NCBI GenBank assembly: GCA_947483415.1
Contig: CANKLV010000003.1
Location: 1 to 41,028, forward strand
DNA length: 41,028 nucleotides
Source: Chitinophagaceae bacterium
GTDB lineage: Bacteria > Bacteroidota > Bacteroidia > Chitinophagales > Chitinophagaceae
Direction of reading: 5' to 3'
Shown: in pieces, positions 34,499 through 35,721 of the stretch
How positions within the stretch are numbered: position 1 is the stretch's first letter
Layout of the letters: the number at the start of each line of letters is the position of its first letter
Notes under the pieces: generated by a model
Told to the model about the DNA's origin: nothing
Databases searched by the model: none
The model's input: only the letters and a program-made list of their open reading frames with translations
Program-made: the position numbers and the translations under genes

Positions 34499-35020
34499 AT
34501 GAATATTTTTAATTCTAAAATCCAAGGTCGAAAATCTTTTCGATTAAGAGATTTTGATTACGCTCAAGATGGACTTTATTTTCTTACCATCAATTGCCAC
34601 AATAGGAGAAGTCTTTTTGGAGAAATTCAATTAAATAAGCATGAGAAATTCAAAGTTGAAATGCAATTAAGTGATGCAGGTAAAATAGCAAATCAATGTT
34701 GCTTAGATATTCCAAATCATTTTCCAAATGTAATTTTACACGATTATATAATTATGCCCAATCACATTCATGCAATTATTGAATTAAATAACAAAGTAGG
34801 GGTTGAAAATCTTCAACCTCGACGAAATGAATTTCAAAAAATCATTCCTGGTTCTATTGGATCAATTGTGCGAGGTTTTAAAATTGGCGTAACCAAATGG
34901 ATGCGACAAAATACAGACATACATGATGTTTGGCAACGTAATTATTACGAAGTCATAATTAATAATGACCAAGCATATAATGAAATATCAATGTACATTT
35001 CAAATAACCCCAAAAATTGA
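34499..35020 (+). mobile_element. REP-associated tyrosine transposase (RAYT; Y1/IS200-like HUH transposase)
   Basis: RKSFRLRDFDYAQDGLYFLTINCHNRRSLFG; HUH YIIMPNHIHAIIEL; SIVRGFKIGVTKWMR; VWQRNYYEVIINND with candidate catalytic Tyr. Confidence 0.92.
34796..34823. repeat. REP-like palindrome copy 1 inside the RAYT CDS (GTAGGGGTTGAAAATCTTCAACCTCGAC)
   Basis: Core GGTTGAA-AATC-TTCAACC stem-loop; encodes VGVENLQPR. Confidence 0.8.
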
Positions 35021-35039
35021 CTTGAAGAAGATGAAAAAT

Positions 35040-35067
35040 GTAGGGGTTGAAAATCTTCAACCCTTAC
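35040..35067. repeat. REP-like palindrome copy 2 downstream of RAYT (GTAGGGGTTGAAAATCTTCAACCCTTAC)
   Basis: 12-bp stem (one G-T pair) with AATC loop; identical to copy 1 over GTAGGGGTTGAAAATCTTCAACC. Confidence 0.85.
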
Positions 35068-35071
35068 AAGT

Positions 35072-35089
35072 AAAATCTTCAACCCTTAC
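35072..35089. repeat. REP-like half copy AAAATCTTCAACCCTTAC
   Basis: 18-nt exact direct repeat of 35050-35067. Confidence 0.85.
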
Positions 35090-35721
35090 GACTGCATCAA
35101 ATTATGTTCAAGTGCATATAAAGTGAGTGCAGTATTGGTTTTCATGTTCATCTTTGTTAAGATTCTTGAACGATAAGTACTTACTGTTGTTAAGCTCAAA
35201 AGCATAGAGTCTGCAATTTCAGAAATGGTTTTTCCAGACGCCAGCAATTGAAGCACCGTAAATTCCCGGTCAGATAGGATATGGTGAAGCGGCGCGCCAT
35301 TATTTTTATCAACTATAGAAGCTAGTTTTTCTGCAACATTTGGGGTAATATATTTTTTTCCATTAAGCACCCTTTTAACTGCGTCAACCAATTCTTCTGG
35401 CGCCAAATCTTTACTCAAATAGCCCGATGCCCCAGCCTTTAAAACACGAATGGCATAATGATCTTCGGAGTGAATGCTTAAAATTAAAACGGGCAGTTTG
35501 GGTCTTAATAATTTAATTTGTGGCAATGCATCTAATCCACTTCTTCCTGGCATAGATAAATCACTAATGACCAAATCCCAATTTTTTTGAATGATTTGTT
35601 CAATCATAGATTCCGCATCTTTTGCTTCGCCGATATTACAATCAGGGAAACCTTCCTGCAATATTTGTTGAATGCCTTTTCTTACAACGGTGTGATCGTC
35701 AGCAATTAAAATGTCAAGCAT
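35086..35721 (-). CDS. NarL/LuxR-type response regulator
   Basis: Receiver DILIADDHTVVRKGIQQIL..DLVISDLSMPGRSGLD..KAGASGYLSKD; LuxR HTH LSDREFTVLQLLASGKTISEIADSMLLSLTTVSTYRSRIL. Confidence 0.95.
   Translation of the reverse strand: MLDILIADDHTVVRKGIQQILQEGFPDCNIGEAKDAESMIEQIIQKNWDLVISDLSMPGRSGLDALPQIKLLRPKLPVLILSIHSEDHYAIRVLKAGASGYLSKDLAPEELVDAVKRVLNGKKYITPNVAEKLASIVDKNNGAPLHHILSDREFTVLQLLASGKTISEIADSMLLSLTTVSTYRSRILTKMNMKTNTALTLYALEHNLMQS

Follow-up and report, generated by a model that had tools for sequence, protein, structure and literature searches.

We identified a RAYT (TnpAREP) gene in the window, the whole stretch of 41,028 nucleotides from a Chitinophagaceae bacterium that was analysed here, and found that its coding sequence contains, in frame, a copy of the REP palindrome that is dispersed through its own genome. 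The locus is quite probably a REPtron, made up of a subclass 2.4 TnpAREP/RAYT and a cognate REP family, in which in-frame REPs are tolerated in the linker of the protein and are gained, lost and swapped there. A REP within a RAYT gene was already published in 2018 for subclass 2.4 (Quentin et al. 2018, BMC Genomics 19:475, PMC6006769), and the window is a further case. It is a clean, testable one: a domesticated transposase whose coding sequence holds its own substrate. The features of the locus are collected in Table 1.

Table 1. Features of the RAYT locus in the window
Feature	Position	Strand	Basis
RAYT / TnpAREP-type HUH-Y1 transposase ORF, 173 aa	34499..35020	+	NCBIfam NF047646, AlphaFold2 model, 4er8 match
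HUH motif N88-H-I-H91	34760..34771	+	P87, H89 and H91 invariant in the 50-sequence alignment A1
Linker loop (residues 97-119) that joins the HUH strand (89-96) to helix 120-138	34787..34855	+	AlphaFold2 model; highly variable in A1
In-gene REP: GTAG foot and 9-bp stem (one G-T pair), peptide VGVENLQP	34796..34823	+	Sequence, ssDNA folding
Tyr166 of the Y-motif YISNNP	34994..34996	+	Y166, N170 and P171 invariant in A1
TGA stop where homologs have a nearly invariant Trp (alignment column 295); tail W..D.. absent	35018..35020	+	Alignment A1
Downstream full REP: GTAG foot, 12-bp stem, GTAA foot on the opposite strand	35040..35067	+	Sequence, ssDNA folding
18-nt half copy, the 3' half of the REP	35072..35089	+	Sequence repeat

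The ORF encodes a RAYT/TnpAREP. Its AlphaFold2 model (pLDDT 88) matched 4er8, a RAYT with its REP hairpin, as the top PDB structure (TM 0.61/0.64, E 1.8e-7), followed by the IS608 and ISDra2 transposases. The HUH histidines H89 and H91, W145 and Y166-ISNNP are conserved across the 50 homologs in A1. The identification of the ORF as a RAYT with a REP, first made in the sequence-only reading, was upheld by its NHIH, WQ and Y166-ISNNP motifs, by a fold closest to 4ER8 and by the dispersed REP family described below. Profile searches were less clear: the NCBIfam RAYT model NF047646 scored 54 bits (E 1.5e-14), below a cut-off of 80 that is a detection threshold and not a biological feature of the family, and Pfam Y1_Tnp (PF01797) had no match to the RAYT protein or in its own genome. 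These two results, together with the loss of the C-terminal tail, count against our explanation. The genome holds one RAYT homolog, i.e., this is not a multicopy insertion sequence, and a homolog was present in 154 of 396 Bacteroidota genomes.

Subclass 2.4, which corresponds to Bertels group 4 in that study, is abundant in Bacteroidetes and Cyanobacteria and is marked by the motifs NH[IFV]H, WQ and YIxNNP; its tnpAREP genes contain REPs in frame between HuH and Y, in a variable region that was modelled as a peripheral extension (PMC6006769). The window RAYT likewise has NHIH (88-91), W145-Q146 and Y166-I-S-N-N-P, a variable insertion between beta3 and alphaC (loop 97-119) and an in-frame REP (residues 100-107). 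The published REPs of this subclass, from Bacteroidetes, Cyanobacteria and other phyla, are GTAG-footed long or double-foot REPs (PMC6006769), whereas the window REP has GTAG on one side and GTAA on the other, and the window protein stops before the conserved C-terminal Trp. Every subclass 2.4 feature testable here was found in the window RAYT, and its motifs and layout would place it in the subclass.

The window RAYT has no extra C-terminal domain, and its ORF stops two residues past YISNNP. Homologs run on as NNPxxWxxD.. past the Y-motif; the window protein lacks this tail because a TGA replaces the nearly invariant Trp, and the gene may therefore be decaying. Although the catalytic motifs are preserved, enzyme function may be reduced; alternatively, the TGA may be a draft error. 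We rejected a reading of TGA as Trp in the source organism, as TGA terminates 5 of 33 long ORFs in the window. A stop also occupies this codon in the RAYT of locus L254, a gene that is broken in other ways too.

The palindrome GTAGGGGTTGAAAATCTTCAACC lies in frame within the ORF at 34796-34818, where it encodes V100-G-V-E-N-L-Q-P107, and a second, identical GTAGGGGTTGAAAATCTTCAACC lies downstream of the ORF at 35040-35062. As the RAYT stop codon occupies 35018-35020, the downstream REP begins 20 nt later; reading on, it would give VGVENLQPLQ. The 18-mer AAAATCTTCAACCCTTAC is present at 35050-35067 and again at 35072-35089. The initial description of this layout, a hairpin in the RAYT ORF, a full copy 20 nt past the stop and then a half copy, was thus confirmed in all particulars. 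Comparable half copies trail three other REPs of the same genome (L014, L021 and L064). Both full copies fold as hairpins when treated as ssDNA, as had been proposed: the in-gene 28-mer forms a 9-bp stem including one G-T pair (-6.1 kcal/mol, z -4.8), and the downstream REP forms a 12-bp stem (-8.3 kcal/mol, z -4.6). The in-gene REP has retained its GTAG foot, and its 3' foot has drifted (CCTCGAC vs CCCTTAC). Allowing up to 3 mismatches, the stem matched the window 4 times, compared to 0.09 matches expected by chance. An Rfam search with the hairpins matched no family; two matches elsewhere, with E about 0.9, are attributable to chance.

The downstream copy sits between two convergent genes, a reverse-strand gene for a LuxR-type response regulator and the forward RAYT gene. 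Read on the minus strand, each of the two hairpins has a T-rich tail after it and scores as terminator-like (2 such hairpins vs 0.2 expected). These observations would suit a palindrome that serves mainly as a terminator for the two genes, with the in-gene copy as a by-product. We consider this quite improbable, as it leaves unexplained the in-gene copy itself, the GTAG foot, the RAYT-specific distribution and the linker hairpins found across phyla; a terminator role and a REP role are in any case compatible. The half REP also supplies the TAA stop (35086-35088, minus strand) of the response regulator gene (35086-35721).

The hairpin belongs to a genuine REP family. A genome-wide search allowing up to 2 mismatches, the check proposed at the outset, returned many further copies, with 41 forward and 44 reverse matches in the 1.9 Mb, 223-contig genome and none for a reversed control; most near-palindromic sites are counted twice in these tallies. 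Within the loci fetched from this genome we found 46-48 distinct sites with up to 3 mismatches, yielding the consensus GTAGGGGTTGAA[A/T]AT[T/C]TTCAACCCTTAC. Of 46 REPs checked against ORFs of 150 aa or more, just one falls within such an ORF, the copy in the RAYT gene. A chance coding palindrome followed by a local duplication might have been suspected, given that the window has two identical full copies at a distance of 244 nt. This account is refuted by the genome-wide copies, and its likelihood is practically nil: approximately 46 dispersed copies share the foot and stem, the reversed control gave nothing, and homologs have other palindromes at the same place. The sequence-only reading had named, as grounds for such an account, a lack of further genomic copies and of palindrome conservation at synonymous sites in homologs; we found both the copies and the conservation. 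As it also suggested, the dispersed repeat may have arisen from the in-gene copy, though in this genome that copy is one variant among several and its 3' foot has drifted.

We determined how the REP is distributed across 28 genomes by counting its 20-mer in the forward orientation. It occurred 38 times in its own genome, two times in G023, a genome with this stem at its RAYT locus, and at most once in each of the other 26; there was no occurrence in G091, a genome of the same genus without a detected RAYT homolog. Whole-genome counts for four further stems showed that each occurs mainly in genomes whose RAYTs bear that stem or a close variant, with few exceptions. A second copy within the same 20-kb region was found for 27 of 79 in-gene hairpins, compared to 1.1 expected from other regions; this 34% is a lower bound because the 20-kb test misses most genomes with few dispersed copies. 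These further copies of in-gene stems were 68-fold denser within 500 bp of the RAYT, a count from which L146, with its 11 copies of CGCCAGAGGCCTCTGGCG, was left out. At this locus (G231), CGCCAGAGGCCTCTGGCG occurs eleven times outside the RAYT within one 20-kb region. By contrast, the in-gene stem is the sole copy within 2 mismatches in G155, G330, G354 and G323, so simple landing from a large dispersed pool fits poorly there.

Within the RAYT, the residues coded by the REP (100-107) sit in a low-confidence coil (97-119) before helix 120-138; in the AlphaFold2 model, mean pLDDT is 57 for residues 101-110 and 79 for residues 111-120, compared to more than 90 in the core. Absorption of a cognate REP into this tolerant, predicted disordered loop is well supported. 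It had been one of three suggestions made from the sequence, and it also agrees with the published subclass 2.4 pattern (PMC6006769). Hairpins occupy the same place in homologs. Among 102 homologous genes taken from 20-kb regions of Bacteroidota genomes, 78 (76.5%) have a linker hairpin (score of at least 8), compared to 5.4% of synonymous shuffles. In the alignment of homologs, a check suggested in the original reading, the linker is highly variable. A separate scan of 78 genes from several phyla, including Clostridia, Cyanobacteria, Pasteurellaceae and Spirochaetota, found linker hairpins in 45%, compared to 3.7% when shuffled. A GTRG or CYAC foot was present on 112 of 139 linker hairpins, compared to 10% at random positions, and none of 68 forward GTRG feet was in the phase that gives a TAG stop. 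An excess of hairpins upstream of HUH (21.6% vs 5.2%) was set aside, because the stop-to-stop ORFs include upstream DNA with REPs in that part.

The DNA of the in-gene REP is conserved beyond the peptide alone. In pairs with 50-95% protein identity, third bases at fourfold sites were identical at 90-100% inside hairpins and at 45-68% outside; these pairs are non-independent, and only those with at least 3 shared fourfold codons were used. L081 and L083 share an 18-nt REP core that each translates in a different frame, and the like is seen in L114 and L268.

In-gene REPs are gained, lost and swapped in frame. At the orthologous loci L078 and L079 of sister species, which share 86% identity over 20 kb, a 60-nt REP-bearing segment is present in frame in L079 and absent from L078. 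As other relatives have a REP at this place, a loss in L078 is no less probable than a gain in L079. The RAYT genes of L204 and L254 have flanks that are 97% and 94% identical and a linker that is 54% identical, with different REPs, and the in-gene stem of L254 is similar to the REP that follows the L204 gene. Since L254 is broken (frameshift, altered HUH and stop), this pair speaks for replacement and not for function. G007 (L082) has three adjacent RAYT copies with two different in-gene stems. In a tree built from the core, the in-gene hairpin must have been gained or lost 26 times or more to account for the well-supported branches, under a label that also counts hairpins decayed below threshold; the window gene is itself just below threshold.

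It is possible, though rather unlikely, that the in-gene hairpin is selected as a functional cis element and not merely tolerated. It might serve autoregulation, via mRNA structure or via the RAYT protein binding its own gene, or act as a seed that restarts a REP family after horizontal transfer. A cis site for autoregulation or self-targeting had also been among the suggestions made from the sequence, and REPs do cluster strongly within and beside RAYT genes. The hairpin is near-universal in linkers, yet no other of the 46 REPs in the window genome is inside a long ORF; synonymous sites are strongly conserved, some genomes have the in-gene copy alone, and an identical 18-nt stem core is kept in 13 Clostridia genes whose surroundings have diverged. 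However, the hairpin is absent from about a quarter of homologs, among them L077, which groups with support as sister to the window gene; the stems vary in sequence and in reading frame, and homogenisation with neighbouring REPs would yield equal conservation. A related idea, which we consider unlikely, is that the in-gene REP is a built-in template: a subclass 2.4 RAYT gene would move with its own cognate substrate, would start REP families anew once transferred and could change specificity when its linker cassette is exchanged.

Under the REPtron explanation that we prefer, the RAYT, a HUH/tyrosine single-strand nuclease-ligase, probably recognises the GTAG foot and hairpin on ssDNA and, by analogy with the E. 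coli, S. maltophilia and Marinomonas enzymes, would cut and rejoin near the REP. REPs would accumulate beside and within the RAYT gene, and as in-frame inserts are tolerated in the disordered loop, the hairpin would become peptide (VGVENLQP in the window). The in-gene REP would then turn over while being kept as DNA, through re-insertion or gene conversion from neighbouring REPs, or through selection on the hairpin. We infer that the RAYT itself does the inserting. Landing by chance from a dispersed pool is hard to reconcile with hairpins in three quarters of RAYT linkers, so that cis preference, homogenisation with neighbouring REPs or selection is presumably at work. We came across no publication that describes insertion by a subclass 2.4 RAYT.

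In the established biochemistry of TnpAREP enzymes, from a study of groups 2 and 3, GTAG plus a hairpin is recognised on ssDNA, and the cut is made at a CT or CA dinucleotide close to the REP (PMC8266576). E. coli TnpAREP (4ER8) and the group 2/3 duos (PMC8266576) have the same fold and catalytic motifs as the window RAYT, and the substrate logic, GTAG plus hairpin on ssDNA, is expected to be common to the E. coli enzyme and this one. Unlike in the window, the E. coli REP has a bulge and the C-terminal tail of E. coli TnpAREP contacts GTAG. The GTAG REP superfamily and its REPtrons (Di Nocera et al. 2013, PMC3733652) consist of GTAG-tagged palindromes that are mostly intergenic and adjoin RAYT genes, with some within genes, and that at times supply the stop codons of neighbours. 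The window palindrome is similarly multicopy and dispersed, has a GT[AG]G foot and has copies flanking the RAYT, whereas the intragenic cases highlighted in that study are in repair and other genes and not in the RAYT itself. Rickettsia palindromic elements are also short palindromes in frame in coding genes; unlike the window REP, they are spread over many unrelated genes, and some match CGTC repeats without a known dedicated transposase (PMC3733652). Synonymous conservation, in-frame presence and absence, the linker swap and one REP in two frames are details that we did not find in the available papers. Natural substrates and alleles for three questions come from two pairs, the sister species that differ in the presence of the REP and the genes with swapped linkers: do RAYTs mobilise REPs at all, do they act by preference on their own gene, and is the hairpin within the gene of any importance?

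Finally, we made several further observations on linkers and on repeats near REPs. The core shared by the thirteen Clostridia RAYTs is GCGGGAGCAAGCCCCCGC (L218, L226, L237, L250, L258, L263, L264, L269, L270, L271, L274, L280 and L282), in nearly all of them followed by CTAC on the coding strand, i.e., in the opposite orientation. Four linkers have grown into long in-frame repeat runs (L099 in G023, L111 in G011, L116 in G315 and L178 in G427) and look as if REP-derived peptides had multiplied; the run in G023, VGVGNNNVRVGNNN..., is partly found at a second site further downstream. Dispersed arrays with a 9-bp period (AACCTCnnA repeated) had 99 matches in the window genome and none for the reversed control. 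Many of these arrays lie within 200 bp of a REP, for example at C37:9909-9941 beside the REP at C37:9876, at C145:289-321 beside C145:260 and at C12:22704 beside C12:22735. Repeats rich in GTTCAA adjoin REPs as well.
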